Shown: one piece after another, positions 36,979-52,011 of the stretch
How positions within the stretch are numbered: the first letter of the stretch is position 1
Layout: the number at the start of each line of letters is the position of its first letter
Source: Aequorivita sp. CIP111184
GTDB lineage: Bacteria; Bacteroidota; Bacteroidia; Flavobacteriales; Flavobacteriaceae
Length of the DNA stretch: 64,000 nt
Assembly (NCBI RefSeq): GCF_900489465.1
Contig: NZ_UEFQ01000026.1
Coordinates: 62,001-126,000, forward strand
Direction of reading: 5' to 3'
Notes under the pieces: generated by a model
Databases searched by the model: none
Told to the model about the DNA's origin: nothing
The model's input: only the letters and a program-made list of their open reading frames with translations
Translations under genes and position numbers: made by a program

Positions 36979-37008
36979 TGTTTAACAGTTTTAGTTAAAA
37001 GTTAAACA
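36979..37008. promoter_or_regulatory. light-regulon operator, site A: TGTTTAAC-N14-GTTAAACA
   Basis: Perfect 8-base inverted repeat with a 14-base spacer. It is 49 bases upstream of the fasciclin gene ATG and 17 bases upstream of a TAnnTTTG -10 box (37026-37033). Three other copies are in the photolyase island. Confidence 0.65.
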
Positions 37009-37025
37009 GAATAGTTTTTATATAA

Positions 37026-37033
37026 TATATTTG
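37026..37033 (+). promoter_or_regulatory. flavobacterial -10 element (TATATTTG) of the fasciclin gene
   Basis: Matches the Bacteroidota -10 consensus TAnnTTTG exactly and lies 24 bases before the ATG. Confidence 0.5.
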
Positions 37034-37057
37034 CTCAAAATTCTAAACCCTTATATT

Positions 37058-37570
37058 ATGAAAAAATTAGTTCTTATTTTTACAATTATCCTGTCTTTCG
37101 GCATTTCTAATAATGTTGCTGCTCAAGGAACAATAGTAGATGTTGCTGTTGGTAACGAAGATTTTTCAACATTAGTTGTAGCCCTAAAAGCTGCCGATTT
37201 AGTTAGTGCTTTACAAGGAGATGGCCCTTTTACCGTTTTTGCTCCAACAAATGATGCTTTCGCTAAAATTGATTCAGCAACATTAAGCTCTCTTTTAGAA
37301 GAAAAAAATCAAAAAGCATTGGCAAATATTTTAACCTATCACGTAATACCAGGAAATTTAATGGCAGCAGATGTAGTTGCTGCATTAAAGAAGGGTAAAG
37401 GCAAAGTAGAATTAAAAGCGCTAAATGGCCAAATGATAATTGTGATGGAAAAAGATGGCAAAATTTGGTTGAAAGACACAAATGGAAATTACAGTGAAAT
37501 TGTTGCTACAGATGTAAAAGCTAGCAATGGCGTAATTCACGTAATTGATACTGTTGTAATGCCTAAGTAA
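37058..37570 (+). CDS. secreted fasciclin-domain protein
   Basis: A 170-residue exported protein: signal peptide ending near VAAQ, then one complete FAS1 domain. The H1 motif appears as GPFTVFAPTNDAFAKI and the H2-like end as VKASNGVIHVIDTVVMP, with the central YHV as in HVIPG. FAS1 domains mediate adhesion or protein contacts; the single-domain secreted form in bacteria often co-occurs with light-inducible gene sets. The operator at 36979 fits that view. The start is ATG 37058; the upstream TTG in frame spoils the signal peptide. A good terminator follows. Confidence 0.9.
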   Translation: MKKLVLIFTIILSFGISNNVAAQGTIVDVAVGNEDFSTLVVALKAADLVSALQGDGPFTVFAPTNDAFAKIDSATLSSLLEEKNQKALANILTYHVIPGNLMAADVVAALKKGKGKVELKALNGQMIIVMEKDGKIWLKDTNGNYSEIVATDVKASNGVIHVIDTVVMPK

Positions 37571-37594
37571 GTTTATTTGTATTTGAGTTAAAAC

Positions 37595-37624
37595 AAAAGC
37601 CTCGAATCTTCGGGGCTTTTTTTA
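37595..37624 (+). terminator. Rho-independent terminator after the fasciclin gene
   Basis: Hairpin AAAAGCC(t)CGA-ATCT-TCG(g)GGCTTTT followed by a T run, 25 bases past the stop codon. Confidence 0.85.
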
Positions 37625-37734
37625 TTTTGTTTTTTGCAAATAATAGTACCATCAATTCTTATCGATTTTTTTACTTCAAAAGAAAAACTTTCGAATTCCG
37701 ATAAAAACAAGAATCATGAGGGTATACACCAAAA

Positions 37735-37857
37735 AGAAAGGCGAATCAAATTTTAGTTATTGAAGCTGGGCATATAGTAGAACGTGGCACCCACGATCAA
37801 TTGATTGCTAAGGAAGGTAGGTATTTTGAGTTTTATACGTATCAAGCGAAGATTTAG
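37735..37857 (+). pseudogene. duplicated 3' end of the ABC exporter gene
   Basis: These 123 bases align without gaps to 36621-36743, the last 41 codons of the ABC exporter. I count 13 differences by hand, most of them synonymous, and the reading frame is kept to a stop (TAG instead of TAA). There is no start or ATPase domain, so it is a fragment. It may be the scar of a second exporter copy removed by deletion, or a partial duplication at the edge of the RAYT/REP region. Confidence 0.85.
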
Positions 37858-37867
37858 ATACAAGGAG

Positions 37868-37943
37868 ACGGGTCGGACCCCCGCACCAGCGAAGTAATAA
37901 AAAGTATCGATAAGAACGCTAGCGCGAGCGTCCCGCTCGTGCC
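37868..37943. repeat. REP palindrome pair upstream of the RAYT transposase
   Basis: Two GC-rich units in opposite orientation: a degenerate one at 37868-37891 and a clear one at 37915-37943 (AACGCTAGCGCGAGCG, then TCCCGCTCGTGCC). The latter differs from the downstream unit at 38658-38686 at only two positions. Each folds into a GAGCG/CGCTC hairpin. Confidence 0.75.
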
Positions 37944-38085
37944 GAAACAGCCGCAAACCAAAGCAATCTACACAGAAGAAAAGAAACAGCATTGCAATTC
38001 CAAGTTTCTAGAGAATAGTATTTAAACCGTAACCACCAGTTTATAAAAGAACTAATTTTAAGTATATTTATTCTTTGTCAGAATT

Positions 38086-38643
38086 ATGAGCAGGAAATAT
38101 AAATTTCATAATGGGTCAGCGGCTTATTTTGTTTCATTTGCCGTAGTTAATTGGATTGATGTATTTACTCGCCCAGCCTATTTTAAAGTAATGACAGATA
38201 GCTTAGACTATTGTCGAAATAATAAAGCAATGGCGCTGTTTGCATATTGCATTATGCCTAGCCATATTCATCTATTGTTTCGAGATGACAACGAAAATCC
38301 TTCTGGATTGTTAAGAGACTTTAAAGGTTTTACTTCCAAAAAAATGATTGCTGCTATTATGGAACATCCTCAAGAGAGCAGAAGGGAATGGATGCTTTGG
38401 ATGTTTAAAAGAGCAGGAACAAAGAACAGCAATGTAAAGGAATATCAATTTTGGCAGCAAAACAATCATCCTATTGAATTGTGGAGCACACCAGTTATAA
38501 AGGAGAAATTTAATTATATCCATAACAATCCAGTAGTTGCTGGCTTAGTAATGGAACCGTGGGATTGGAAGCATAGTAGCGCACGTAATTATGCAGAACT
38601 TGATGCTGTAATTCCTATTGATGATATTGGATTTCTTGGATGA
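38086..38643 (+). mobile_element. REP-associated tyrosine transposase (RAYT)
   Basis: A 185-residue Y1/HUH transposase of the IS200-like RAYT branch. It shows the metal-binding HUH motif in YCIMPSHIHLLFRDD, a long linker with FKGFTSKKMI, and the catalytic tyrosine in EKFNYIHNNPVVAGLV. The C-terminus WKHSSARNY is also typical. RAYTs recognise and spread REP palindromes and have no recognisable terminal repeats of their own. Matching REP pairs lie on both sides (37868-37943 and 38658-38743), so enzyme and substrate are together. It appears intact. Confidence 0.92.
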
Positions 38644-38657
38644 TTTTTTATTTATTG

Positions 38658-38743
38658 AACGCTAACGCGAGCGTCTCGCTCGTGCCGTCACAGTTTGGAG
38701 ACCCAGCTTTACGGGGGACACGGGCGGGACGCCCGCGCCAGCG
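38658..38743. repeat. REP palindrome pair (BIME-like) downstream of the RAYT transposase
   Basis: Unit 1 (38658-38686, plus) and unit 2 (38719-38743, minus) share the frame CGCTnnCGCGnGCGTCnCGCnCGTG in opposite orientation. This inverted pair resembles a bacterial interspersed mosaic element. Confidence 0.75.
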
Positions 38744-38981
38744 GGGGATGTTGTAGAACTTTCAGTTATTATAAAACCCATTTATTTATTTCTCCCAGAT
38801 TGTCCGGGTTCATTGTCAATTCTTTTTGACAGAAAATGTGGTACAATATGCGAACCTTTCTTATCGGCTGGATTTTCGTTACAAATTATGCAGTTTCTCA
38901 TATATAGGTCCAAAATAATAGTGTCAAGATTATTGGAGAAAAAGGATTGTTTTTACCTCAGTTCTTTGTTGAACATATAGA

Positions 38982-39524
38982 TTATTTTATTATTTTCAAT
39001 ATTTCTAATAATCTTGGAATTTTATCAACTTGTGTTTCTGTCCAAAAGGTGTAATTTTTAAACTCACTATCGTCATAACTATTCAGTTTAATCGTTAGCC
39101 TTCTACTTTTTTCATAAATGAAATAAGAAAGTGTCATTTCATTTGCCTTAAAAATGAATTCAGATGATTTATCTTTAAATCTCAAATCCAAATTTGGAAT
39201 TACATTATCCTCAATAAAGCTAATAAATTCATTTATTTCTTCCATTCCAATCCAAGCAGTTTTAAATACTTCGGGTTTTTTGATATTCATATCAAGTTGA
39301 AGAGCATTTCTTTTTTCACCCGTTTTTAAATTTATTACTTCTATTGGATAAAACTCAACTGTTTCTCCGATTCCAGATTTAAATTCAGCGATAGTTGTCC
39401 AGTCTTTATTAATTCTTGTGAATTGAGCTTCGTCAATAAACTTCCGTGTAGATGATTCAATATTTTGTCCGAATGAAATTGTAGTTGAAATTAAAAATAG
39501 AAATACTAAAAATTGATTTTTCAT
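38982..39524 (-). CDS. secreted hypothetical protein
   Basis: A 180-residue exported protein with a signal peptide (LFLISTTISFGQ). It then has a mixed alpha/beta body with EAQFTRINKDWTTIAEFKSGIGETVEFYP and a C-terminal RLTIKLNSYDDSEFKNYTFWTETQV. No family recognised. It is the first of three minus-strand exported proteins of unknown function between the RAYT region and the radical SAM gene, a typical accessory patch. Confidence 0.6.
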   Translation of the reverse strand: MKNQFLVFLFLISTTISFGQNIESSTRKFIDEAQFTRINKDWTTIAEFKSGIGETVEFYPIEVINLKTGEKRNALQLDMNIKKPEVFKTAWIGMEEINEFISFIEDNVIPNLDLRFKDKSSEFIFKANEMTLSYFIYEKSRRLTIKLNSYDDSEFKNYTFWTETQVDKIPRLLEILKIIK

Positions 39525-39658
39525 AAATTATTATTTGGTTGGTTTATAATATTGTAAACATCGTAGAAAAAAACTCCAGTGTTGTATAATCAGCAATGTG
39601 CTTAAGATTATTTTTAAATACTAGAAAACAAATGTGTATATCTAAATCCAAAGTTTTA

Positions 39659-40114
39659 TCAATAATCTTCGTTTTCGTCTTCATCATCCCAAATGTTATC
39701 TTCATCATAATCTTCTTCATCTACAGTAATATTATCTTCTGGAATATAATTCGATAGATTACAATCTCCTTCTTCCCCAATTATTTCCACAGAATATTCC
39801 ACTCCTTTATCACTCTCAAATTCCGCAAATCCATCACTTATATCAGGCGGATAAAAATGGCTGTCATCTAACCAACCGCCATTTGGCCAATGGATAATAG
39901 TTAATTCATTATTTTCAATTTCAACCTCTAACGTATAAGTCGACCTTGTTCCAGTTTTTGAGTAGTAGTATTCAATTTCAGCGCAATATGTTCCGTCCGA
40001 ATAACCATCTTCATCAAAATTTGAATTATATGAACGACTATCGTCGTAATTTCGATTATTATTTTTACAACTAAATGTTAAAAAAATCAGTAATATTATA
40101 TATATTAATTTCAT
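39659..40114 (-). CDS. small acidic lipoprotein
   Basis: A 151-residue predicted lipoprotein: the signal segment ends in a lipobox LTFSCKN. The mature part is strongly acidic and ends in a run of Asp/Glu (DDEDENEDY). A central TLEVEIENNELTIIHWPNGGWLDDSHF looks like a small beta sheet. Unknown function. It lies 26 bases downstream of the MORN-like gene and may be co-transcribed with it. Confidence 0.65.
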   Translation of the reverse strand: MKLIYIILLIFLTFSCKNNNRNYDDSRSYNSNFDEDGYSDGTYCAEIEYYYSKTGTRSTYTLEVEIENNELTIIHWPNGGWLDDSHFYPPDISDGFAEFESDKGVEYSVEIIGEEGDCNLSNYIPEDNITVDEEDYDEDNIWDDEDENEDY

Positions 40115-40140
40115 TTTTAATTTTTTCTGTTTGGTTTATG

Positions 40141-41094
40141 TTATTTCTCTTTTATTTCGCCCCATTCATATTCCGTAGTGTCGCCAATACCTTCTCCATT
40201 TTCTTCATAGCTATAAAAAACTCCGTGATTTATCCAGTTATTTACCTCCTCGTCAAATAATTGTCCGTAGATAAACTTAATATTGCCATTATCCCAATAT
40301 TCTATCTTTGCTCTATATTTGTCAGTTATATCTAACTCACCATTTTCTAAATACCATTTCCATTCTCCATCTCTAATATTTCCAGCATATTTATTTATAC
40401 CATTATCAAATGGGTCAAATAATTTACCATAAACTCTTTTATTACCATTTTCATAGAATTGTGTGTATTCACCAATGTAAGAGTTATTTAAAAACATAAA
40501 AGTTGTGTATTCCTCTTTCTTAATAGTAGAATTTTTGTAATAAATTACTGTTTTTGTTTTTAACCCTTTTACCTCGCTTTTATCATCCGAAAATGTTTTT
40601 TGACTTGCCAATAGGTTGCCATATTGGTCAATGGAATTTTTTATCCATCCGTCATTTAACATTCGTCCAATTTGTTCCACCCAACCTTCATCATCATCCG
40701 GATGATATTTCCAATACACAGTTTCGCCCTCGTCAAATTTTAAAATCTCCATTAAATCTCCATCATCATTCCATTTTTTACTTTCACCTTGTTTGAGACC
40801 TAATTTATAATTTTCGTTGATAATTAAATTTCCTTTTTCGTCATAAAATTTATAGTTTCCATCTAACAGCATTCCGCCATTACCTCCTTTAGTTGACTTT
40901 ATCTTCGAAAATTCTGTGTACCAATAATATTCTTTATTATCATCAAAATCAGTTTTATTATTTCCAACAAGGACATTAAAAATTTCTAAACCATTTGTGT
41001 ACTGTATTCTTATTTCTTCCCTTTTGCCAGAAGATTGTGAATGGAGAAATGCTATTGTAAATATAAATATGAGAGTAAGTAGAGATCTTTTCAT
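40141..41094 (-). CDS. secreted MORN-like / YwqK-type repeat protein
   Basis: A 317-residue exported protein: signal peptide (LLTLIFIFTIAFLHSQ), then repeated G(E/N).K.Y..NG.....Y..G.L segments (for example YENGNKRVYGKLFDP, YWDNGNIKFIYGQLFDE), the MORN_2/YwqK type. It is related in architecture to 3431-4120 but longer and with less regular repeats. The start is ATG 41094, just before the signal peptide; an upstream ATG adds 23 unrelated residues. Function unknown. Confidence 0.7.
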   Translation of the reverse strand: MKRSLLTLIFIFTIAFLHSQSSGKREEIRIQYTNGLEIFNVLVGNNKTDFDDNKEYYWYTEFSKIKSTKGGNGGMLLDGNYKFYDEKGNLIINENYKLGLKQGESKKWNDDGDLMEILKFDEGETVYWKYHPDDDEGWVEQIGRMLNDGWIKNSIDQYGNLLASQKTFSDDKSEVKGLKTKTVIYYKNSTIKKEEYTTFMFLNNSYIGEYTQFYENGNKRVYGKLFDPFDNGINKYAGNIRDGEWKWYLENGELDITDKYRAKIEYWDNGNIKFIYGQLFDEEVNNWINHGVFYSYEENGEGIGDTTEYEWGEIKEK

Positions 41095-41312
41095 TCCTTC
41101 TATATTATCAATATTTTTCAAAATATTTGGGTAATCGCCAAACTTTTTGCTATTATCCCTCACATGTGCTTGAGTTTATTTCCAAATATAATTAAAAGTA
41201 AATCACCCGCATTACGGAAAACCGCAAAGGAGAAAATTAATAGGGGAGAAGTTCAAATATAGCAACTATCAATTAAGAATAACTAATAAACAATTATCAA
41301 TACCTTTGCCCA

Positions 41313-43187
41313 ATGCAATCCAAAATCCTATTTATAACGCCACCGTTTACCCAGCTGAATACAGCCTATCCGGCATCGGCTTATTTAAAAGGTTTTTTGG
41401 AAGGTCACGACATTGCCGTGCAGCAATGCGATTTAAGTATAGAACTCTTTACCGCCATTTTTACGGGCGATTTTCTTCGCGCTGTGTTTAAGGAAGCACA
41501 AGCCTTAAAGCATTTTGATTACCCAGAAGTTCGGAAGATGAAGGCCAAGTACATAGCGTGCGTGGATGTTGTTATTCCGTTTCTTCAAAAGCAGGATCTT
41601 GCAACGGCGCATAAAATTCTGGAACCTAATTTTTTACCGTTGGGTCATCGGCTTTCTAAAGTAAATACTACTATTAAATGGGACGCTGGAGAAATTGGCA
41701 TCATCGATAAAGCAAAACATTACGGAACCCTTTTTATTGAAGAGATAGGCGATTTTATGCAGGCGAATGTGGATGAGTTTTTTGCCTTTACAAAGTACGC
41801 CGAGCAGATTGCCACTTCAGCCAGTAGCTTTAATGAAATAGATGAGTTTTTAAGTTTTCAGCCAACTATCATTGAAGAGAAAATGCTGGATCTTTTAATA
41901 GAAAAGATTAAAAAAGAGCAACCGCTTTTGGTTTGCTTTACCATTCCGTTTCCCGGTAATTTGTTTGCAGCCTTGCGTTGCGCCCAATTTACAAAACAGT
42001 TTTTTCCCGATATTAAAATTGCTTTTGGTGGCGGCTATTGCAACACCGAACTGCGTTCGCTTACAGACCCACGGATTTTTGAATTTGTGGATTTTATTTC
42101 CTTGGACGATGGGGAAGGGCCTTTGCTAAAAATGGTTCAGTATCTGGAAGGGAAGGTTACTATAAATGATTTGGAACGGACGTATGTGCTGGAAGACGAT
42201 GCGGTTGTTTATAAGAATAAATTTCCGAACACCATTTACCATCATAGAAACTTGCCAGCGCCTGATTATTCTGGGCTGCCTTTCGAAAAATATGTGTCTT
42301 TTCTGGATGTGGTAAACCCGATGCACCGTATGTGGACGGATGCCCGATGGAATAAAATGACCATCTCGCACGGCTGTTATTGGAAACAATGTTCGTTTTG
42401 CGATGTGAGCTTGGATTATATTGGGAATTACCAAAACACAACCGCTGAAGATTTAGTCAATAAAATTGAAAAGATAGTTAAAGACACGGGCATTACAGGT
42501 TTTCATTTTGTGGATGAAGCCGCGCCGCCAAAAATGTTACGCGCTTTAGCGAATGCATTAATAGAGCGGAATGTAAAAATTACTTGGTGGACGAATATTC
42601 GTTTTGAAAAGACGTTCAGCTTTGAGTTATGCGAATTAATGGCTCAATCTGGCTGTATAGCCGTAACTGGTGGCTTGGAAGTAGCTTCGGATAGGTTACT
42701 CGCCAAAATGAAAAAAGGGGTCGATATTGCGCAAGTAACGCGGGTTACGCATAATTTTTCTGAAAACAATATTATGGTTCACGCCTATTTAATGTATGGT
42801 TTTCCCACCCAAACGGAACAGGAAACTATTGATTCGCTAGATGTGGTAAAGCAATTGTTTGAACGCAATTGCATTCAGTCGGCTTATTGGCATCAGTTTA
42901 CTACTACTATTCACAGTCCAATAGGCAAAAACCCTGAGGATTTTGGAATACTAGTTACGGGACCTGAGTTTGAAGGTTTTGCCCAAAACGATTTGTGGCA
43001 TGAAGATCCGCAAGGCGCCGATCACCCGAAATATACTAGTGGCTTAAACTTGGCATTGCACAATTATTTAAACGGAACAGGTTTCGATAAAGAAATACAA
43101 CATTGGTTTGACTTTCCGGTGCCTGCAACTACGCAGCCTGCTGGTATGATTGAGGGGTTTTTGGGAGAGATTGTTGCCATTAAATAA
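41313..43187 (+). CDS. B12-binding-domain radical SAM protein
   Basis: A 624-residue radical SAM enzyme. The N-terminus (LFITPPFTQLNTAYPASAYLKGFL) and the middle region (KIAFGGGYCNTELRSL, then FVDFISLDDGEGPLL) fit a cobalamin-binding Rossmann domain. The [4Fe-4S] motif is in HGCYWKQCSFCDVS, spaced C-x4-C-x2-C rather than C-x3-C-x2-C. The rest is a TIM barrel with FVDEAAPPKML and GGLEVASDRLL. The substrate is unknown; such enzymes often methylate or ligate unreactive carbons. It stands alone next to the second sigma/metallothionein module. Confidence 0.85.
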   Translation: MQSKILFITPPFTQLNTAYPASAYLKGFLEGHDIAVQQCDLSIELFTAIFTGDFLRAVFKEAQALKHFDYPEVRKMKAKYIACVDVVIPFLQKQDLATAHKILEPNFLPLGHRLSKVNTTIKWDAGEIGIIDKAKHYGTLFIEEIGDFMQANVDEFFAFTKYAEQIATSASSFNEIDEFLSFQPTIIEEKMLDLLIEKIKKEQPLLVCFTIPFPGNLFAALRCAQFTKQFFPDIKIAFGGGYCNTELRSLTDPRIFEFVDFISLDDGEGPLLKMVQYLEGKVTINDLERTYVLEDDAVVYKNKFPNTIYHHRNLPAPDYSGLPFEKYVSFLDVVNPMHRMWTDARWNKMTISHGCYWKQCSFCDVSLDYIGNYQNTTAEDLVNKIEKIVKDTGITGFHFVDEAAPPKMLRALANALIERNVKITWWTNIRFEKTFSFELCELMAQSGCIAVTGGLEVASDRLLAKMKKGVDIAQVTRVTHNFSENNIMVHAYLMYGFPTQTEQETIDSLDVVKQLFERNCIQSAYWHQFTTTIHSPIGKNPEDFGILVTGPEFEGFAQNDLWHEDPQGADHPKYTSGLNLALHNYLNGTGFDKEIQHWFDFPVPATTQPAGMIEGFLGEIVAIK

Positions 43188-43204
43188 CAGGAACTAACTT
43201 AAGA

Positions 43205-43726
43205 TTAGTTACATTTCGAGCAATTAGGTTCACCAATCAAACTTCCGTTTTTGTCTAATTCGTATTTGCAGCATTCGTTGAAGTTTTTCTTTAAAATGTC
43301 TTTTGCTCGCCGAATTCGTGCTTTTACATTGGCAAGGCTGATATCTAATATTTCTGAAACTTCGTTTTGTTTTTTCCCTTTTAAGTAAACCAATTCAATA
43401 GGCTCTTTGTAGATAAGGGGTAATTGGTTGATAAAGGTATCGAAACAACAAATATTTTGATAGCTTTCAGTATTAATTTCATTGGCTTCTTTTGTAGTTG
43501 CAACATATACTGATTCCTGTTTGAAGAAATTAGCAATCTCATTACGCGCAATCTGAAAAACCCATGCTTTTATCTTTTCTTCTTCTTTAAGCTGGTGTAG
43601 GTTTTTGTGAATTTTCAGAAAAGTATTCTGAAAAATATCGTTGGTAGCGGCTTCATTTTTTACTTTTTTCAAAATGAAAAAGTAGAGCTCCTCGTTAAAC
43701 TGCTTCCAAATTTTTTGGGTTTCCAT
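43205..43726 (-). CDS. SigZ-like ECF RNA polymerase sigma factor, copy 2
   Basis: A 173-residue paralogue of 26857-27378, the same length and about 75-80% identical by eye. Region 2 (NEELYFFILKKVKNEAATNDIFQNTF), region 4 (LPLIYKEPIELVYLKGKKQNEVSEILDISLANVKARIRRA) and the cysteine-bearing tail (NECCKYE... NCSKCN) are kept. The most divergent piece is the linker around VYVATTKEANEINTES. The start is ATG 43726; a TTG 12 codons earlier is in frame but lies inside the hairpin. It follows the second metallothionein-like gene. Confidence 0.85.
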   Translation of the reverse strand: METQKIWKQFNEELYFFILKKVKNEAATNDIFQNTFLKIHKNLHQLKEEEKIKAWVFQIARNEIANFFKQESVYVATTKEANEINTESYQNICCFDTFINQLPLIYKEPIELVYLKGKKQNEVSEILDISLANVKARIRRAKDILKKNFNECCKYELDKNGSLIGEPNCSKCN

Positions 43727-43741
43727 ATTCAAAAGTATAAC

Positions 43742-43767
43742 AAAGGTTGGCTTTTGGGCCAACCTTT
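43742..43767 (-). other. hairpin between metallothionein-like gene and sigma factor, copy 2
   Basis: Ten-bp stem AAAGGTTGGC / GCCAACCTTT with a 6-base loop. Compared with copy 1 (AAAGGTTAG/CTAACCTTT), the differing stem pair changes on both sides, so pairing is maintained by selection. Confidence 0.75.
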
Positions 43768-44125: not shown

Positions 44126-44177
44126 GTCAAACATTAACAAATCATTCTGTTTAACATTATGAATAAATAGTTAAACA
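44126..44177. promoter_or_regulatory. light-regulon operator, site B with third half-site
   Basis: A perfect pair TGTTTAAC (44148-44155) and GTTAAACA (44170-44177) with a 14-base spacer. An extra half-site GTCAAACA (44126-44133) lies exactly 14 bases upstream, so half-sites repeat every 22 bases. A -10-like TATCTTTA follows at 44183-44190, and the operon starts at 44229. Confidence 0.65.
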
Positions 44178-44228
44178 TTTTTTATCTTTACGCTCTATTA
44201 AAAAAGAATTTAAATAAAAATCTAAAGG

Positions 44229-44393
44229 ATGTTTCGATTATTTAGTAAGAAATCAGAGAAAGATAAATTATACGAACAATATCAAAAGCTATTAAAAGAG
44301 TCGCATAGCTTGTCTACAACAAACAGAAAGCAAAGTGATCAAAAGGCTTATGAAGCAGAGGAGATTATGAAAAGGTTAGAACAGTTAACCTAG
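44229..44393 (+). CDS. family Lacal_2735 small protein
   Basis: A 54-residue protein (MFRLFSKKSEKDKLYEQYQKL...) with an amphipathic helical body and the ending EIMKRLEQL. It matches the pattern of the flavobacterial family named Lacal_2735 (MF.LFKKK.E..KL...Y.KL..E...LS..NR..SD), whose role is unknown. It is the first gene after operator site B and starts 50 bases past it, which places it at the head of the photolyase operon. Confidence 0.75.
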   Translation: MFRLFSKKSEKDKLYEQYQKLLKESHSLSTTNRKQSDQKAYEAEEIMKRLEQLT

Positions 44394-44396
44394 TTT

Positions 44397-44801
44397 ATGA
44401 ATGATACAAAGATCCCTGATCAAGTAGTTTTTGACGTAGCAACTCAAAAATATGATTCCTCCTTAAAGCCATACGCTACAAATGTTGGTGCTCCAGTGAT
44501 AACAACCACAGATACTGTGGCTTGGAAAAACAGAAGCATTAACAAACTGAATCACAAAGTACAAACACGGTATCAAGAAATAAAAGCGCAATACGATCAA
44601 TTAATACAAGAGTTTGAATACAACAACTTAATATATAATGCTAAATTTTCATTCGAGCCCATTATAGGCGATAGCTATCACTTATACATTCGCGCTAATG
44701 ATGAGACATTCCTATCGCTAATAGCACCAGAACAATGCAATTTTAAATCATTGGGAAGTTTCCGTTTAAACAGCGATCAAATTTGGGAAAAAATAGTGTA
44801 A
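44397..44801 (+). CDS. DUF2452 family protein
   Basis: A 134-residue soluble protein of the DUF2452 family, marked by the opening PDQVVFDVATQKYDSSLKPYATNVGAPVI, central helix KVQTRYQEIKAQYDQLIQEFEYN and the C-terminal FEPIIGDSYHLYIRANDETFLSLIAP. The role is not known, though it is often found beside photolyase genes in Flavobacteriia. It is 3 bases after the preceding gene and overlaps the next, so they are in one operon. Confidence 0.8.
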   Translation: MNDTKIPDQVVFDVATQKYDSSLKPYATNVGAPVITTTDTVAWKNRSINKLNHKVQTRYQEIKAQYDQLIQEFEYNNLIYNAKFSFEPIIGDSYHLYIRANDETFLSLIAPEQCNFKSLGSFRLNSDQIWEKIV

Positions 44802-45091
44802 ATATAGTTTTGGAAAAAGAATTTACAGAACGGCAATTAGACCGTATTATAGAAATGGCTTGGGAAGATAGAACGCCTTTTGAAGCTATAGAGTTTCAGT
44901 TTGGAACTCCAGAAAAAGAAGTGATTCTACTAATGCGCGAAAACTTAAAAGAATCTAGTTTTAAACGCTGGAGAAAACGTGTAAACAGTGGTGTAAGCTC
45001 CAAACATTTGAAAAAACGAGGTGCAGAGATTAATCGTTTTAAATGTTCAAGACAAAGTGCCATTTCTGGTAATAAAATAAGTAAACGTTAA
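44783..45091 (+). CDS. TIGR03643 family protein (TTG start)
   Basis: A ~100-residue protein of the TIGR03643 family, marked by RIIEMAWEDRTPFEAIEFQFGTPEKEVILLMRENLKESSFKRWRKRV. It is a small conserved partner of photolyase/cryptochrome genes. No ATG exists in this frame before the conserved part; the possible starts are TTG at 44783 (overlapping DUF2452 by 19 bases) or TTG at 44810. Its TAA shares one base with the ATG of the photolyase gene. Confidence 0.8.
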   Translation: MGKNSVNIVLEKEFTERQLDRIIEMAWEDRTPFEAIEFQFGTPEKEVILLMRENLKESSFKRWRKRVNSGVSSKHLKKRGAEINRFKCSRQSAISGNKISKR

Positions 45092-46206
45092 TGCATAGTG
45101 AACCAGATACAAAGGCACAGTTTCCAACGGCTTTTGATGCTATTTTAGAAAAAATCACAACTATTGATCCTATTGCTTATGGTCCTTCAAGAAACTACGT
45201 AGATGGTGCAGTAAGTTACCTATCGCCTTATATTTCTCGCGGGGTTATTTCCACGAAATTTGTTTATCATCAATTAATGGAGCGCGGCTTTCATCCAGGT
45301 CCGATTATGAAATTCACTCAAGAATTGGCATGGCGCGATTATTGGCAGCAGTTTTGGATTGCCAAAGGTGATGCTATTAATCAAGATTTAAAGCACAAAC
45401 AGGCTCCAGTTATAAGTATGGAGATATCTTCGGCATTGGCTGCAGGAAATATAGGCATTACAGCTATAGATTTAGCTATTCAACAATTATATACAACAGG
45501 CTATATTCACAACCATTTGCGTATGTACCTTGCAAGTATTGCGTGTAACATAGCTCATAACCATTGGAAAACACCTGCACAATGGATGTACTATCATTTG
45601 TTGGATGCTGACTGGGCTAGTAATGCACTAAGCTGGCAATGGGTTGCAGGAGCCAATAGTAATAAAAAATATTATGCCAATCAGGAGAATATAAATAACT
45701 TTTGTTACAGCAACCAGACCAATACTTTTCTAGATGTTTCATATGACGCTTTTGAAAATTTACAGATTCCAGAAGTGCTAATTGACACACAAATATTAAG
45801 CCTCACCACATCCTTACCAGAACAAAAAGAGATTGTCATAAATGCAGCACTACCTACCTGTATTTATAATTTCTACAACTTAGATCCTATTTGGAAAAAA
45901 GAAGAGTCCATAAATCGTATTCTTTTATTGGAACCTTCACATTTTAAGCAATATCCAGTTTCTAAAAAGACCATTGATTTTATACTCGATCTTTCTAAAA
46001 ACATACCCAATATCCAAATATTTGTAGGTGAATTTGATGAACTTATTAGTAGCTATAAACTGAACACTATTTATTATAAAGAGCATCCTTTAAATAATCA
46101 TTATAAAGGTATCGAAGAACCACGGGATTGGATGTTTGATGTAAAAGGATATTACCCATCTTTCTTTGCTTTTTGGAAAAAATGTAAAAAGGAAATTATA
46201 TTTTGA
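45091..46206 (+). CDS. photolyase/cryptochrome FAD-domain protein with unusual domain order
   Basis: A 371-residue protein. The FAD-binding helical domain of DNA photolyases begins right at the N-terminus: NYVDGAVSYLSPYISRGVIS, FTQELAWRDYWQQ, then HNHLRMYLASIACN and LDADWASNALSWQWVAGANSNKKYY, the flavin-pocket motifs. The alpha/beta antenna domain usually in front is missing. Instead an alpha/beta-like segment (INRILLLEPSHFKQYPVSKKTIDFILDL... WMFDVKGYYPSFFAFWKKCKKE) follows, about residues 270-371. It may repair pyrimidine dimers with light or act as a sensor. The last bases before it form TAATG coupling. Confidence 0.85.
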   Translation: MHSEPDTKAQFPTAFDAILEKITTIDPIAYGPSRNYVDGAVSYLSPYISRGVISTKFVYHQLMERGFHPGPIMKFTQELAWRDYWQQFWIAKGDAINQDLKHKQAPVISMEISSALAAGNIGITAIDLAIQQLYTTGYIHNHLRMYLASIACNIAHNHWKTPAQWMYYHLLDADWASNALSWQWVAGANSNKKYYANQENINNFCYSNQTNTFLDVSYDAFENLQIPEVLIDTQILSLTTSLPEQKEIVINAALPTCIYNFYNLDPIWKKEESINRILLLEPSHFKQYPVSKKTIDFILDLSKNIPNIQIFVGEFDELISSYKLNTIYYKEHPLNNHYKGIEEPRDWMFDVKGYYPSFFAFWKKCKKEIIF

Positions 46207-46264: not shown

Positions 46265-46393
46265 ATGAAGAAGCAAGATTTACCCCAAAAAATATGTGTC
46301 GCTTGTGAACGACCTTTTACTTGGCGGAAAAAATGGGAAAAGAATTGGAAGGATGTAAAATACTGTAGCGAGCGTTGTAAAAAGAATAAATGA
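46265..46393 (+). CDS. DUF2256 small zinc-ribbon-like protein
   Basis: A 42-residue protein with the DUF2256 pattern [29 protein letters not shown]: four cysteines as C-x2-C and C-x3-C likely hold one zinc. DUF2256 genes regularly adjoin FeS-type cryptochromes. It sits between the two photolyase genes and its TGA overlaps the next ATG (ATGA), so the stop-containing gene below is clearly part of the operon. Confidence 0.85.
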
Positions 46394-47877
46394 AAAGCAT
46401 AAACATAATATTTCCGCATCAATTATTTCAAGAATCTCCACTTTTTGAAAACAAGGTGCCTACGTATGTTGTTGAAGAATATTTGTTCTTTAAGCAGTAC
46501 CCATTCCACAAGCAAAAAATAGCCTTTCATAGAGCTACTATGAAACGGTATGCAGATTTTCTTCGGAAAGAGAAAAACTTAGAGGTTATTTATGTTGAAG
46601 CTATTGCGAAGATATCAGATATCAGATTACTTATTCCTGAATTAAAACAACAAGGTATTCAGCATATTAATTATATAGATCCCACAGACAATTGGCTTCA
46701 AAAGAGATTGGATACTGGTTTTCAAGAAAACGGATTAACTGGAAAGCAGTATTCATCGCCTTTATTCTTAAATTCTAAAGAGGATTTAGCTACTTTTTTT
46801 AAAAGTGATAAAAAGAAATACCATCAAAGTGCTTTTTACACAGAACAACGTAAAGAGCGTAACATACTTATGGAACCTGATGGTAAACCAACAGGTGGTA
46901 AATGGTCATTCGATTCCGAAAATAGAAAAAAATATCCTGCTAAAAAGACACCGCCAGCTATTTAATTTCCTGATGTTGATGAATATTATGATGAAGCAAA
47001 ACAGTATGTAGAAACACACTTCGCAGAACACTTGGGAAAGCTTACCAATCAATCCTTATATCCCACTAGTTTTGAAACTACAAAAGCCTGGCTTAGTCAA
47101 TTTTTTGAGCATCGTTTTATGGAGTTTGGTGCTTATGAAGACGCTATTGACACTGAAAACTCTATACTTCACCATAGCGTATTGACCCCAATGCTTAATG
47201 TTGGTTTAATAACTCCGAAGGAAATTATTGATGTTTGTTTATTGTACGCAGAAGAAAACGAGGTGCCCATTAATTCTACAGAAGGATTTGTACGTCAAAT
47301 TATTGGATGGCGAGAATTTATAAGAGGTGTTTATGAATCTAGGGGCAGCGAAGAACGAACAACCAATTTCTGGAAATTTAAAAGGAAAATACCAGCCTCA
47401 TTTTATGATGGTACTACGGGTATTTTACCCATCGATCAAACAATTAAAAAAGTATTGCAAACGGGCTATTGCAATCATATAGAACGTTTAATGATACTCG
47501 GCAATTTTATGATGTTATGCGAATTTGATCCAGATGAAGTTTATCAATGGTTTATGGAACTCTTTATAGATTCTTATGATTGGGTAATGGTCACCAATGT
47601 ATATGGGATGAGTCAATTTTCCGATGGCGGATTAATGGCTACTAAGCCATATATAAGTGGCAGTAATTATCTGCTAAAAATGAGCAACTACCAGAAAGGA
47701 GGATGGCAAGACGTTTGGGATGGACTGTTTTGGCGATTTATGCATACACATCGCGATTTCTTTTTAGGAAATCCTCGATTGGGAATGTTAGTACGGATGT
47801 TTGATAAAATGCCGGATAGTAAAAAAGAAAGGCATATAATAAATGCAGAAGCTTATTTAAAAACTTTAGTATTATAA
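46390..47877 (+). pseudogene. CryB / FeS-BCP-type photolyase-like gene broken by one in-frame stop
   Basis: One continuous frame of 495 codons, interrupted by TAA at 46963-46965 (codon 192), with no frameshift before or after. The first part (INIIFPHQLFQ, then WSFDSENRKKYP) and the second (FPDVDEYYDEAKQYVETHF, EGFVRQIIGWREFIRGVY, NHIERLMILGNFMML, YGMSQFSDGGLMATKPYISGSNY) together make a full-length bacterial (6-4)-photolyase-like protein. The cysteines that hold the [4Fe-4S] cluster in PhrB-type enzymes are absent from the KMSNYQKGGWQDVWDGLFW region; one Cys (GYCNHIE) remains. The protein is lost unless the stop is read through. Confidence 0.85.
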
Positions 47878-47911
47878 AATCAATTAATAGGATTCAGTAA
47901 AATAATACAAT

Positions 47912-48265
47912 ATGAGTATTTTAACTATAGCTGTATTTTTATCAGGTGGCGCCTTCCTATTCTATGGTCTTAGCTGTTTGATTTCACAGAAAATGACCGA
48001 TGAATTTATTCGATTTGGTCTTGACAAACAAAAAAGATTATTAACTGGGTATTTGCAAATATTAGGAGCCTTAGGATTAATTTTTGGAAACTTTTTTTTA
48101 GATGATTTAGTTTTTATTGCTTCGGCGGGATTATCAGTTCTAATGCTTTTGGGATTTGCCATAAGAATTAAAATTAAAGATAGTATTTCACAATCCCTAC
48201 CATCTTTAGTAGTTGCCTTTCTCAATCTTTACATCTGTATAGAATATTACTACAAAATTTATTAA
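47912..48265 (+). CDS. DoxX-like small membrane protein
   Basis: A 117-residue protein with four hydrophobic segments (about 4-22, 42-60, 68-87, 95-112) and the middle loop SQKMTDEFIRFGLDKQKRLLTGYLQILGALGL, resembling the DoxX/SURF4-like fold of four-helix membrane proteins. The role is unknown. It starts 34 bases after the broken CryB gene and probably shares its operon. It is convergent with the next DoxX-family gene. Confidence 0.7.
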   Translation: MSILTIAVFLSGGAFLFYGLSCLISQKMTDEFIRFGLDKQKRLLTGYLQILGALGLIFGNFFLDDLVFIASAGLSVLMLLGFAIRIKIKDSISQSLPSLVVAFLNLYICIEYYYKIY

Positions 48266-48273
48266 TATGATCT

Positions 48274-48636
48274 CTAAGCAAATGCAATAACTAAGCACAT
48301 AACTAAAAATAATGCGGCTGGAAAAGATTTAAATAGAGGGTCTTTTATTTTGATATGCATAGCTACAGATCCTAATAATAGGGCGGCTAATCCTAATGCT
48401 GCTGGTTGTTTTAATACGGGATACCATATTGCAGCAATAAGTAAAATAGCAAGTATTACTTTTATAACTCCTACAATATACATTAGGGTAGTTGATAAGC
48501 CATATTCTTTAAACTCTTCAGTAATGGTCGTAGCGTTTCCTCCACGCCATTTCGTTGGTTTCTTCCCTTGTAAAAGCCATACATTTAGAATACTAAGGCC
48601 TACGATAATTTGAAATGCTATAACTATATAATTCAT
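48274..48636 (-). CDS. DoxX family membrane protein
   Basis: A 120-residue four-helix membrane protein: IAFQIIVGLSILNVWLLQ, then FKEYGLSTTLMYIVGVIKVILAILLIAAIWYP and LGLAALLLGSVAMHIKIKDPLFKSFPAALFLVM. The last motif matches the conserved IKDPL.K..PA segment of DoxX family members. Substrate unknown. It is divergent from the hypothetical at 48789 with operator site C between them. Confidence 0.8.
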   Translation of the reverse strand: MNYIVIAFQIIVGLSILNVWLLQGKKPTKWRGGNATTITEEFKEYGLSTTLMYIVGVIKVILAILLIAAIWYPVLKQPAALGLAALLLGSVAMHIKIKDPLFKSFPAALFLVMCLVIAFA

Positions 48637-48717
48637 ATCTATAATTGAATGTTTATCTAATAAAACTAATCATAAAAACCGTTAAAAAATATTTTTCGGC
48701 TATAAAAGCACTATTTT

Positions 48718-48747
48718 TGTTTAATATTTTTAAGTAATTGTCAAACA
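48718..48747. promoter_or_regulatory. light-regulon operator, site C: TGTTTAAT-N14-GTCAAACA
   Basis: Inverted pair with the same 14-base spacer as sites A, B and D and two mismatches from perfect. It is placed between divergent genes, 82 bases from the DoxX start and 42 bases from the 48789 start. Confidence 0.6.
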
Positions 48748-48788
48748 AGAATATATACAGATTTTTCTAAAGTTGAAAAACAAAGCAA

Positions 48789-49214
48789 ATGCTATTTAAC
48801 ACAAGCTATACAAATAAAGAGTATAACCAGCAAAGCGTAAAGATATTGGGCAAATCATTTTCTTTTTTTGAAAAAATAAAAATGGGAGGTATTGGGTCTA
48901 GCAGATTTATGATTAAAGAAATAAGCCCTAATTTAAAACCCAAAAACTTTCAAAGTATAGCTAGCAATTATTCGAATATTGAATTAAGGCCTAAAGGAAT
49001 AATTATACATTTTACAAATAGACTAGACCGCTATTCGTGGATCATTCCATATTATCGTTTAGTAACCTACAGCACGCAGACCTTCAGTATTCACTCAAGC
49101 GGAAGTTTTATAAAACTTAAAAAAAATAAGAATTATATAGATAATAAAAAGTTTATTGATAAAATGCTAGCTCTAAAAAGCAATTTTTTAAATCTAGATT
49201 ATTATGATGCTTAA
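48789..49214 (+). CDS. conserved hypothetical protein next to operator C
   Basis: A 141-residue soluble protein with mixed beta structure. The first half has SVKILGKSFSFFEKIKMGGIGSSRFMIKEISP and the second NIELRPKGIIIHFTNRLDRYSWIIPYYRLVTYSTQTFSIHSSG, which looks like a PH-like or small beta-barrel domain. No family recognised. It is the first plus-strand gene after operator C, 20 bases before the CIA30 gene, and so is likely light-induced. Confidence 0.55.
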   Translation: MLFNTSYTNKEYNQQSVKILGKSFSFFEKIKMGGIGSSRFMIKEISPNLKPKNFQSIASNYSNIELRPKGIIIHFTNRLDRYSWIIPYYRLVTYSTQTFSIHSSGSFIKLKKNKNYIDNKKFIDKMLALKSNFLNLDYYDA

Positions 49215-49234
49215 CGCATAACACTGAGAAAAAA

Positions 49235-49771
49235 ATGATTATTAATTACTCAATTTTACTGATTTCAATTGTAACTACGATGCAAACAACAACAATTTTT
49301 GATTTTAATAAAACAATCAAAACCAATGATTGGAATGTTGTAGACGATGTGGTAATGGGAGGCAAGTCTTCAGGAACATTCTATGTGAATAAAGAAGGAA
49401 ATGGTGTATTTGAAGGTCGTGTTTCTTTAGAAAATAATGGCGGATTTTCATCTTTGAGGTATCGCTTTAACAAAATCACTACAAAACAGTATGCAAAAAT
49501 TGTTTTGAGAATTAAAGGCGATGGAAAGGCCTATCAATTCAGAATAAAAAATAAGTCATCTAATTATTATTCTTATATCGCTTATTTCGATACCACAAAA
49601 AATTGGGAAACCATAGAGTTAAATTTATCTGATATGTACCCAACATTTAGAGGTCAAAAAGTCAATATGCCAAATTATGATAACGAGAGTATCGAAGAAA
49701 TTGCGTTTTTAATAGGCAATAAAATGGCAGAGGATTTTAAGCTGGAAATTGATTCTATAGTTTTAAAGTAA
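49235..49771 (+). CDS. CIA30 family protein
   Basis: A 178-residue protein of the CIA30 (NDUFAF1-like) family. It has TIFDFNKTIKTNDWNVVDDVVMGGKSSGTF, FEGRVSLENNGGFSSLRYRF and LRIKGDGKAYQFRIKN, a jelly-roll carbohydrate-binding-like fold. In mitochondria CIA30 helps complex I assembly; in bacteria the function is not known. The N-terminal hydrophobic stretch may be a signal peptide. It lies in the island with photolyase genes. Confidence 0.85.
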   Translation: MIINYSILLISIVTTMQTTTIFDFNKTIKTNDWNVVDDVVMGGKSSGTFYVNKEGNGVFEGRVSLENNGGFSSLRYRFNKITTKQYAKIVLRIKGDGKAYQFRIKNKSSNYYSYIAYFDTTKNWETIELNLSDMYPTFRGQKVNMPNYDNESIEEIAFLIGNKMAEDFKLEIDSIVLK

Positions 49772-49793
49772 AGTTAGGTTTCAATTTAACTTG

Positions 49794-50210
49794 TTATTCC
49801 AAGAAATAAAATATAAAACTATATATAAATAGTAGCGTCCATAAAGCAGTACGTATCCAATTTTTATTTACTAAGGAAACCAATAGTTTTTCGCTGACAA
49901 TACCTTTTGAAATCGAAGTATGTATGGGCACAAATTGCAAGAAAGTAGCCAACCAGACAAATATTATAATTATCAGACTTATCACCGTATAAACACTTGG
50001 CAGCAGGATGGTTTGATACACCGCAATACCAATTTGCCCTAGCATTAAGGGAATTACGATAACACTAAAACGGGCGGTGTATACTTTATGCCATGCAATA
50101 AGATTTTTGGCAGGATAATATCGAAAACTAGGATACACAATGCATTGTATCATCCAAATTAAAACAACTAATCCAAAATCGAGTAAAAGTCGAATTAGTT
50201 CAATAGACAT
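49794..50210 (-). CDS. four-helix membrane protein
   Basis: A 138-residue membrane protein with hydrophobic segments at about 6-25, 48-65, 72-92 and 115-137, with FRYYPAKNLIAWHKVYTARF between the first two. It resembles an uncharacterised small DUF membrane family of Bacteroidota. Its ATG shares one base with the stop of the glutathione peroxidase gene (TAATG), so the two are translated together, which suggests a role in the same oxidative stress response. Confidence 0.55.
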   Translation of the reverse strand: MSIELIRLLLDFGLVVLIWMIQCIVYPSFRYYPAKNLIAWHKVYTARFSVIVIPLMLGQIGIAVYQTILLPSVYTVISLIIIIFVWLATFLQFVPIHTSISKGIVSEKLLVSLVNKNWIRTALWTLLFIYSFIFYFLE

Positions 50211-50734
50211 TATAAGTGCTTCGTAATTTTTGAACTCATTGGTTTAGTGATTGAAAAGTAATAATCAATCAGATTGCCCTTATCATCCACCAAATATTTT
50301 TGAAAGTTCCATTTTACACTTGAACTCTTCTTGCCGTTAAGCTCTTTTGAGGTAAGCCATTTGTATAATGGATGTTGCTTGCTACCTTTTACCGCTATTT
50401 TCTCGGTAAGTAAAAATGTTACCCCAAAATTTAATTCACAAAATTCTTGAATTTGAGTAGCATTTCCAGGCTCTTGTTTCCCAAATTGGTTACACGGAGA
50501 ACCAATAACAACGAGTTTATCAGCATATATATCGCTCAATGCTTGTAGCTCTTTATATTGATTTGTGAATCCACATTCCGAAGCGACATTTACAAAAAGT
50601 ATCTTCTTCCCTTTAAAAGCTTTAAGAGAAATAGGTTTACCATCCAACTCATTTATGGCTATATCATAAATAGAATGCCTTTTTATTTCAGCAGCAACTG
50701 TAGTTGGTGTTTTTGCTTTATCAGGTGTATTCAT
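50210..50734 (-). CDS. glutathione peroxidase family protein (cysteine type)
   Basis: A 174-residue thiol peroxidase. Active-site features are VNVASECGFTNQYKEL (peroxidatic Cys in place of selenocysteine), PCNQFGKQEPG (Gln, resolving region) and VKWNFQKYLVD (Trp/Asn of the tetrad). It reduces hydroperoxides with thioredoxin or a thiol such as bacillithiol. It has no signal peptide. A weak TACCTTTG -10 element is seen on the minus strand at 50798-50805. It precedes the four-helix membrane gene. Confidence 0.92.
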   Translation of the reverse strand: MNTPDKAKTPTTVAAEIKRHSIYDIAINELDGKPISLKAFKGKKILFVNVASECGFTNQYKELQALSDIYADKLVVIGSPCNQFGKQEPGNATQIQEFCELNFGVTFLLTEKIAVKGSKQHPLYKWLTSKELNGKKSSSVKWNFQKYLVDDKGNLIDYYFSITKPMSSKITKHL

Positions 50735-50849
50735 AGTTATATTTTAAAAGGAACAATACCACAATCTGTTTCAAAGAATCATTCAAATTCTCTTAACCAA
50801 AGGTATTATTGTTATAGATGAAATTTTGTATCAAAACGCAGTTTCAACA

Positions 50850-51548
50850 TTATTTTAAATAATTCTGCAATTCAGCAATTTTGTTTGGTGTATTAAATAC
50901 CCCGCCATAAAACGAAGTTACAGTGGCAGAAGTATCATCTTTTATTCCACGAGAAGAAACACATAAGTGTTTTGCATCTATAATTACTGCAACATCTTTT
51001 GTATCTAATATTTCAGTAAGTTCAGCAGCAATCTGATTGGTTAAGCGCTCCTGTACTTGAGGTCTTTTGGCATAATATTGAACAATTCTATTAAGCTTGG
51101 AAAGCCCGATCACTTTTCCAGAAGAGATATAGGCAATATGAGCCTTTCCTATAATTGGAACAAAGTGATGCTCACAATTAGAATAAAATGTAATATTTTT
51201 TTCAACCAGCATTTGGTTGTATTGATATTTATTATCAAACAAAGCAACTTTGGGTTTGTTAGCTGGATTTAAACCTGAAAAAATTTCTTCTATGTACATT
51301 TTGGCCACTCGATTAGGCGTGCCTTTTAAGGAGTCGTCAGTAAGATCCAAGCCCATAACATCCATTATTTCTGCAAAAAGACCTGATATTTTGTACTTTT
51401 TTTCTTCATCAGACATTTCAAAAGCATCGGCTCTCATAGGAGTTTCAAGTCCGGAATAAATATGGTCATCGCCAATTTCTTCGTCTGAAAATCCGTTTAG
51501 TCTATTATTTTTAATGAGGGTATTCAACATAGTTTCTTGGTGTTTCAT
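50850..51548 (-). CDS. folE: GTP cyclohydrolase I
   Basis: FolE opens the purine ring of GTP to make dihydroneopterin triphosphate, the precursor of pterins. The 232-residue enzyme has NITFYSNCEHHFVPIIGKAHIAYI (zinc Cys and two His), VIGLSKLNRIVQYYAKRPQVQERL, and CVSSRGIKDDTSATVTSFYGG (third zinc Cys). It overlaps the QueD/PTPS gene by up to 38 bases; a second ATG at 51530 is possible. Together they can make the pterin that photolyases use as a light antenna. Confidence 0.95.
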   Translation of the reverse strand: MKHQETMLNTLIKNNRLNGFSDEEIGDDHIYSGLETPMRADAFEMSDEEKKYKISGLFAEIMDVMGLDLTDDSLKGTPNRVAKMYIEEIFSGLNPANKPKVALFDNKYQYNQMLVEKNITFYSNCEHHFVPIIGKAHIAYISSGKVIGLSKLNRIVQYYAKRPQVQERLTNQIAAELTEILDTKDVAVIIDAKHLCVSSRGIKDDTSATVTSFYGGVFNTPNKIAELQNYLK

Positions 51549-51921
51549 AAAGTTTAATCTTTAATTCTAGTTTAGCTTCAATCGCTGGTCGTAACAAGTT
51601 GTAAATAGTTATCGCAATATTCTCGGCAGTGGGATTCAGATCTTTAAATTCAATGGTATCCAGATTAAGGTTTTTGTGGTCGAATTTATCTAAAATTTTC
51701 TCCTTTATTAAGTCAGATAAAATCTTTGTATCTATAACATATCCAGTCTCCGGATCACACGGCCCAATAACTTTTACTTCTAAATCATAATTATGACCGT
51801 GATAATTAGGGTTGTTGCATTTTCCAAAAATGGCTTTGTTTTTTTCGTCACTCCAATTTTTATTGTGTAATCTGTGTGCTGCGTTAAAGTGTTCACACCT
51901 TACAATGGCAATCTTATTCAT
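51511..51921 (-). CDS. 6-pyruvoyl-tetrahydropterin / 6-carboxytetrahydropterin synthase family protein
   Basis: A 136-residue PTPS/QueD-fold enzyme. The zinc ligands are in CEHFNAAHRLHN and NYHGHNYDLEV, with FKDLNPTAENIAITIYNLLR near the C-terminus carrying the conserved Asn/Glu pair. It acts on dihydroneopterin triphosphate, the product of the adjacent folE. The final product could be a pterin antenna for the photolyases, tetrahydrobiopterin-like compound or queuosine precursor; the location in a photoprotection island favours the first. Operator site D is 61 bases upstream of its start. Confidence 0.9.
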   Translation of the reverse strand: MNKIAIVRCEHFNAAHRLHNKNWSDEKNKAIFGKCNNPNYHGHNYDLEVKVIGPCDPETGYVIDTKILSDLIKEKILDKFDHKNLNLDTIEFKDLNPTAENIAITIYNLLRPAIEAKLELKIKLYETPRNYVEYPH

Positions 51922-51981
51922 TTATGCTGTGTATAGATTTTTGTTTATCGTATTTTGTAGTGTAAAAGTATTCTATTTTTT

Positions 51982-52011
51982 TGTTTAATCTTTTATATAT
52001 ATTGTTAAACA
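51982..52011. promoter_or_regulatory. light-regulon operator, site D: TGTTTAAT-N14-GTTAAACA
   Basis: Inverted pair with a 14-base spacer between the divergent PTPS/folE pair and the FAD oxidoreductase. A TAACTTTG -10 box (52026-52033) points towards the oxidoreductase. Confidence 0.65.

Follow-up and report, generated by a model that had tools for sequence, protein, structure and literature searches.

Four interrupted palindromes in a 64,000-nucleotide stretch of the Aequorivita sp. CIP111184 genome (hereafter the window) very probably serve as operators for a LitR/CarH-type regulator whose gene lies on the same contig and which would repress genes for sun protection in the dark and permit their induction by light. 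The operator and its regulon are real and apparently undescribed, and they likely work like CarH/LitR. A sequence-only reading of the window had suggested operators of a LitR/CarH-type MerR regulator. Our analyses support this suggestion: the sites are enriched, stand in front of genes, recur in similar gene contexts and are conserved; one of their kind lies between litR and crtI, and the presence of sites goes together with that of LitR. DNA binding and the response to light would follow from the likeness to this regulator family.

A pattern scan with TGTTTAAY-N14-GTYAAACA recovered the four sites that this reading had reported (Table 1), each with a 14-base spacer. Each is located between open reading frames (ORFs) or ahead of one, in line with the promoter placement it had proposed. 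With up to two mismatches, the scan of the window gave 10 rows, compared with a mean of 0.54 and a maximum of 4 in shuffled sequence. The pattern itself had to be modified. It matches all four sites, but the Y in its right arm fits site 3 alone, whose right arm GTCAAACA is one base off the palindromic core; we hence restate the core as TGTTTAAY-N14-RTTAAACA. Similarly, the exact 14-base spacer is true of the four sites, but a 15-base form also exists elsewhere in Flavobacteriaceae.

Distribution of the motif and the genes behind it

The genome (3,536,078 bases in 44 contigs, 99.9% complete) contains the original pattern at exactly four places, counted on the plus strand, all of them the window sites; a control with the pattern reversed gave none. 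Allowing one mismatch to the core, we counted 13 places compared with none for the reversed control, that is, nine places besides the four sites. Five of these nine have neighboring genes like those of the sites in other genomes. One-mismatch sites precede a second DUF2452-TIGR03643-flavin reductase operon, a second fasciclin gene and the gene of a DUF4397 protein, and one stands beside a TetR-ABC1 pair. The DUF4397 site has an equivalent at the same place in genome G027 and a like sequence in G254, and the site of locus L029 is likewise followed by the gene of a DUF4397-like protein, recognized by eye. For the remaining four places (one each on contigs C7 and C10, two on C38), no regulon-like neighbors could be named with confidence. 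As a side observation, the one-mismatch site L101:4260-4289 (G000:C38:40259-40288) lies about 70 bases before an egtB-egtD-like pair (ergothioneine; names assigned by eye), and among the matches listed no like site accompanies this pair in two sister genomes.

In a family sample of 299 genomes, with one to three per genus and 236 genera, the exact core occurs at 591 places in 215 genomes. The motif letters are mostly A and T and could thus be suspected to form A+T-rich palindromes by chance; the reversed pattern of the same letters, however, gave only 19 places, and a form with a 15-base spacer 34 places in 31 genomes. These two controls refute a chance origin, to which we attach a vanishingly small probability. 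Because both counts are so low against 591, letters and spacing of the motif are, judging from sequence, both under selection. The 14-base spacer is the dominant form, a rule with exceptions: at least five of the 34 15-base places lie, by their coordinates, within 0.5 kb of a TetR_C_23 match (genomes G256, G104, G263, G283 and G113), and another is some 25 bases away from a litR match (G077). A phylum-wide draw had a match in 37/247 genomes, of which 24/27 were of the same family (own genome included) and 13/220 of others, as read by eye from the table. The exact form of the motif is hence mainly a Flavobacteriaceae trait. The genome scan and background check proposed in the sequence-only reading thus place the motif far above background, in this genome and in the family.

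For the positions of the sites relative to genes, we used 79 distinct sites, drawn from the loci fetched for the listed part of the 591 family hits, and took ATG-start ORFs of at least 60 aa as genes in place of the output of a trained gene finder. At 78/79 sites, an ORF directed away from the site begins within 350 nt, which is true of 28% of positions in 16 control stretches. Among the 101 proteins encoded behind these sites were 17 fasciclins, 14 TetR_C_23 proteins, 12 phytoene-desaturase-like FAD enzymes, 10 MnmA and 6 Porph_ging proteins; the mnmA genes in the listed loci are divergent from fasciclin genes. The commonest family among 58 control proteins has two members, and fasciclin, TetR_C_23 and phytoene-desaturase-like proteins are absent from the 25 families shown for these controls. 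In one intergenic region between mnmA and a fasciclin gene (L049:7203-7274, the same as L012), two sites are found 42 bp apart, about four helical turns.

Two settings recur among the loci listed. In the first, sites flank both ends of an operon encoding TetR, an ABC1 kinase, a flavin reductase and a DUF2867/epimerase protein; by eye, it also holds photolyases, a 142-aa protein, TIGR03643, FolE, a short-chain dehydrogenase and glutathione-peroxidase-like genes, and in five loci the two sites are 8.5-8.6 kb apart. In the second, a site stands in the intergenic region that separates a MerR gene from crtI. The motif hence sits near photolyase, carotenoid and merR genes across family loci, the neighborhood in which it had been expected.

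Comparison of orthologous promoters, likewise proposed in the sequence-only reading, showed that counterparts of the genes behind all four window sites carry the motif in other genera. The site 1 fasciclin has such a counterpart in L122 (76% identity) and the site 2 DUF2452 protein in L120 (62%). The 141-aa protein of site 3 shares 47% identity with L046:13635-14063, which has its site 46 nt in front, and the pterin synthase of site 4 shares 72% with L027:1563-1985, with a site 48 nt in front. We aligned counterparts of the site 2 promoter from eight named records (Polaribacter twice, Gillisia, Cellulophaga, Aequorivita, Allomuricauda, Ulvibacter and Algibacter), picked for having a site at this position, which in two cases has one mismatch. 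TGTTTAA and TTAAAC were invariant and the spacer variable, and most of the eight contained a TATCTTTA-like element downstream at a similar distance. Furthermore, 80 loci anchored on TIGR03643 instead of the motif (1.28 Mb) yielded 21 exact sites in 19 loci, two Lutibacter loci sharing the same site sequence, with 0 for the reversed control. With one mismatch, this set contained 32 sites compared with 2 for the reversed control, and changing the spacer to 13 or 15 bases left 2 or 3.

A LitR/CarH-type regulator on the same contig

In four of the first loci, the stretch from the sites to crtI or the flank of the TetR operon encodes a protein combining MerR and B12-binding domains. A profile search with these four proteins found one relative in the own genome (G000:C13:182640-183509), here called LitR. 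The sequence-only reading had placed the regulator outside the window, and the LitR gene is indeed on the same contig, some 57 kb beyond the end of the window. Its ORF (C13:182610-183512) begins with GTG and encodes 300 aa, with an N-terminal MerR-type helix-turn-helix (PF13411, MerR_1, E 6.4e-12; PF00376, E 4.2e-07) and a C-terminal cobalamin-binding region (PF02607, B12-binding_2, E 2.2e-10). LitR matched the CarH structure 5c8d in a phmmer search (E 2.1e-09, best stretch 125-221), and structure 3whp also matched over the cobalamin region. The CarH cobalamin-site residues, which we take to be numbered W131, E141 and H142, together with His132 and the lower ligand His177, are all aligned and identical in LitR. 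A cobalamin adenosyltransferase match is present in the genome as well.

Directly downstream of litR follow crtI-like, phytoene synthase, hydroxylase-like and lycopene cyclase genes. A one-mismatch site separates litR from the crtI-like gene, two bases before the start codon of the latter, and it is found also in two other genomes of the genus. LitR is 47% identical to the protein of L048. Across 30 loci around the best LitR matches in the family, 21 have an exact site, which in 20 stands at the litR 3' end. The regulator hence shows every LitR/CarH family feature that was tested, namely the MerR helix-turn-helix, the cobalamin region, its site residues and the carotenoid-gene neighborhood.

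Over the 236 genera, the presence of LitR tracks the presence of sites. LitR hits were found in 241 genomes of the sample; we divided them by eye at a gap in E-values into strong (1e-80 or better) and weak (1e-48 to 1e-56). Sites occurred in 205/220 genomes with strong LitR and in 10/79 without (4/21 with a weak LitR-like protein, 6/58 with no hit). Reduced to one genome per genus, the counts were 168/178 with LitR compared with 7/58 without. Eight genera are mixed for LitR; in five of them (g7, g30, g32, g47 and g59) sites are confined to the LitR genome, and two are free of any sites.

These counts also bear on another candidate reader. A TetR_C_23 protein heads the photolyase/pterin operon in many genera and in the own genome, and it might itself bind the palindrome, with LitR as a bystander. 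Palindromes in their own promoters are common targets of TetR proteins, and the motif precedes a TetR_C_23 gene in 14 of the 101 promoter cases given above. Yet site presence does not follow the TetR gene, which has matches in 197 genomes: sites were present in 42/45 genomes with LitR and no TetR_C_23, compared with 6/22 with TetR_C_23 and no strong LitR and 4/57 with neither. In addition, crtI sites occur in genomes free of a TetR_C_23 match, e.g., G143 (L044) and G072 (L052). We hence rejected TetR_C_23 as the motif reader and consider this role very improbable.

Half-site layout and a putative cobalamin switch

CarH operators are built of tandem nnnnTnnACAn units (PMC9304148). The half-site TAAACA fits the TnnACA unit, and TGTTTA is its complement; each site thus spans 30 bp and consists of two such units in opposite orientation, whose hexamers are 18 bases apart. 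Read outward, 7/8 arms of the window sites end in TAAACA, and the right arm of site 3 ends in CAAACA. C makes up only 29/994 spacer letters in 71 oriented sites, and a further ACA within the spacer is hence not a rule. At four loci with divergent LitR-like proteins, we searched chosen intergenic stretches for inverted TGTnnA/TnnACA pairs at any spacing from 4 to 30. Of ten hits, five had a spacing of 18, four of 19 and one of 5, which suggests that this group uses the same inverted layout with other inner letters. The divergent LitR-like proteins (L095-L098) also adjoin crtI.

The -7 element of Bacteroidota promoters has the consensus TAnnTTT(G/A), whose last letter we loosened for the search. 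Of 112 sites, including those from LitR-anchored and TIGR03643-anchored loci, 41 have a -7-like element at offset 15 and 34 have one at offset 35, compared with 0.63 per offset at offsets 55-100. In the offset-15 class, the G of the right arm is also part of the -7 element, and the arm extends to about +1; in the offset-35 class, the arm ends five bases upstream of the element. Site 2 is of the latter kind and the litR-crtI site of the former. On these predicted promoters, the sites would overlap the core promoter as CarH operators do.

CarH is a repressor that in the dark keeps RNA polymerase off (PMC4557120). By analogy with this family, the adenosylcobalamin form of LitR would bind the inverted half-site pair in the dark and, since the site covers or abuts the -7 element, block RNA polymerase. 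Light would break the cobalt-carbon bond and LitR would release the DNA, allowing expression of the carotenoid, photolyase/pterin, fasciclin and FAD-oxidoreductase genes. Binding, dark repression and light induction are what we infer for the window sites, with light release taken over from LitR/CarH. Alternatively, LitR bound to the sites might act as an activator, a mode common among MerR proteins. Sites at offset 35 cover the -33 region immediately before the -7 element, a position that an activator might occupy. At offset 15, in contrast, a protein bound to the right half-site would obstruct the promoter up to about +1, and both CarH (PMC4557120) and PmlR2 (PMC9758184) are repressors. Activation thus seems quite unlikely, and we continue to favor repression in the dark.

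Several observations nevertheless weigh against light-released LitR repression from these sites. The tandem 11-bp direct repeats of CarH operators are absent, the arms being inverted, and in the right arm of site 3 the T of TnnACA is replaced by C. Of the window sites, 1, 3 and 4 show neither of the two frequent -7 placements. An exact site is lacking in 15/220 LitR genomes, including both other genomes of the genus, in which up to two mismatches gave a modest excess (22 vs 10 and 19 vs 11 for the control). Conversely, the 10/79 genomes that have sites without strong LitR comprise six with no hit, five of them drafts 73-81% complete and one 94% complete, and in genus g51 a LitR-less draft (76% complete) has two sites vs one. 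In the own genome, up to three mismatches gave 198 places vs 248 for the control; without excess at this level, weak sites cannot be called by pattern alone, and the signal is that of near-exact sites. Finally, CarH needs His132 to come apart in light, and Gln stands at this place in 69/73 strong LitR proteins.

This last point deserves closer attention. After light exposure, His132 of CarH coordinates the cobalt, and the His132Ala protein stays mostly tetrameric (PMC10442372). Gln was found in 30/33 proteins from the loci of the LitR profile search, where the three with His are from the window's genus (L084-L086), and in 39/40 from further down the match list, with His in one other (L258); Gln is thus present in the rest of L054-L083 and L235-L274. 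The tryptophan, glutamate and lower-ligand His are kept in 73/73 and His142 in 70/73. Five weak LitR-like proteins keep all four of these residues, with T, G or S at the His132 place. A regular-expression reading, according to which divergent LitR-like proteins had lost the lower cobalamin ligand His, was dismissed, as the alignment shows this His in 5/5.

LitR on its sites could thus answer to cobalamin supply or redox state and not mainly to light, in agreement with the prevalence of Gln and the behavior of His132Ala CarH. The remaining cobalamin-site residues are nevertheless nearly invariant, LitR of the own genome keeps His132, and photolyase and carotenoid genes are among the putative targets; we hence regard this explanation as unlikely and retain light as the signal. 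Replacement of His132 by Gln in nearly all genera read would point to a different photochemical step for the same cobalamin sensor. A family-wide light regulon with inverted half-sites at two -7 positions, in which Gln-type LitR switches by such a step and the window's genus keeps the CarH version, is a tentative extension that we deem possible but short of probable.

Window genes and relation to known systems

The genes behind the four sites are listed with the sites in Table 1. The photolyase-related (DPRP) gene carries a single in-frame TAA with the frame open on both sides; this could reflect a decayed gene or a sequence error, and the two cannot be told apart here.

Table 1. Operator sites, -7-like elements and adjoining genes in the window
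Feature	Position	Strand	Remarks
Operator site 1, TGTTTAAC-N14-GTTAAACA	36979..37008	.	precedes small secreted fasciclin gene
-7-like TATATTTG of site 1	37026-37033		neither of the two common placements
Fasciclin-domain secreted protein	37058..37570	+	listed ORF from TTG 37031; ATG 37058 fits relative
Operator site 2, TGTTTAAC-N14-GTTAAACA	44148..44177	.	upstream of photolyase operon
-7-like TATCTTTA of site 2	44183-44190		five bases downstream of site, offset 35
Short ORF, 54 aa, first operon gene behind site 2	44229..44393	+	direct reading; similar short ORF in L120, by eye
DUF2452 protein	44397..44801	+	domain match; relative in L120
DUF2805/TIGR03643 protein	44783..45091	+	domain match
Photolyase/cryptochrome FAD-binding-domain protein	45091..46206	+	PF03441
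Photolyase-related (DPRP) gene	46390..47877	+	interrupted by in-frame TAA at 46963-46965
DoxX-like protein	47912..48265	+	probably operon end
DoxX-like protein, left of the two genes diverging from site 3	48274..48636	-	
Operator site 3, TGTTTAAT-N14-GTCAAACA	48718..48747	.	between divergent DoxX-like and 48789-49214 genes
Conserved protein without Pfam match	48789..49214	+	relative of 142-aa photolyase/pterin-operon protein of other genera
CIA30-domain protein	49235..49771	+	probably same transcript as 48789-49214
GTP cyclohydrolase I, folE	50850..51548	-	
6-Pyruvoyl/6-carboxytetrahydropterin synthase (PTPS) family protein	51511..51921	-	
Operator site 4, TGTTTAAT-N14-GTTAAACA	51982..52011	.	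between divergent PTPS-folE and FAD-oxidoreductase genes
-7-like TAACTTTG of site 4	52026-52033		
FAD-dependent oxidoreductase	52063..53316	+	HpnE/protoporphyrinogen-oxidase/desaturase-like, all below curated cut-offs

The region also encodes a BLUF (blue-light, FAD) protein at 34343-34825 (-), about 2.2 kb from site 1, and hence another type of light sensor. It is a possible extra light input; a link to the sites was neither looked for nor found. Two genes for sigma factors of the extracytoplasmic function type lie near regulon genes, at 43205-43762 (-) and 33326-34096 (+), one SigZ-like and one longer.

Flavobacteriaceae are major heterotrophs of sunlit water. If our reading is true, one short DNA word would predict their light-responsive genes, genome by genome, and DUF2452, TIGR03643/DUF2805, the 142-aa protein, DUF4397, secreted fasciclins and Porph_ging would join sun protection. 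CarH-based tools would gain a compact inverted operator from another phylum. Moreover, the natural Gln/His split at the His132 place offers ready pairs for analyzing how a B12 photoreceptor releases DNA.

The LitR/CarH regulator family and its control of carotenoid genes are already known. In open-licence literature, judged from titles and abstract beginnings among the matches listed, we found no description of the motif or of a LitR regulon in Bacteroidota. Chryseobacterium lacus, also of Bacteroidota, forms a carotenoid pigment in a light-dependent manner, and a gene was proposed to act like CarA/LitR, a link that its authors call a bold speculation; an operator or regulon is not described in the part of that report at hand (PMC7064467). 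Proteorhodopsin-bearing marine Flavobacteriia are enriched in clustered photolyase and photolyase-related genes; that work concerns gene content, and its main text contains neither the word MerR nor light-induc (PMC5932025).

The LitR proteins PplR1/PmlR2 of Pseudomonas recognize T(G/A)TACA-N12-TGTA(C/T)A, likewise two TGTnnA/TnnACA hexamers, and their targets include light-inducible genes (PMC9758184). There, however, the spacer is 12 and not 18 bases, the hexamers are near-palindromic themselves, and PmlR2 belongs to class II of LitR, acts together with a LOV photoreceptor and is itself unaffected by light (PMC9758184). The sites described here resemble the CarH operators of Thermus thermophilus and Bacillus megaterium in the TnnACA half-site, the core-promoter overlap, seen here on predicted promoters, and a regulator that joins MerR and cobalamin-binding parts. 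They differ in architecture, with two inverted half-sites in place of three or four tandem 11-bp direct repeats, and in a gene set that extends to fasciclins, pterin genes and DUF genes.

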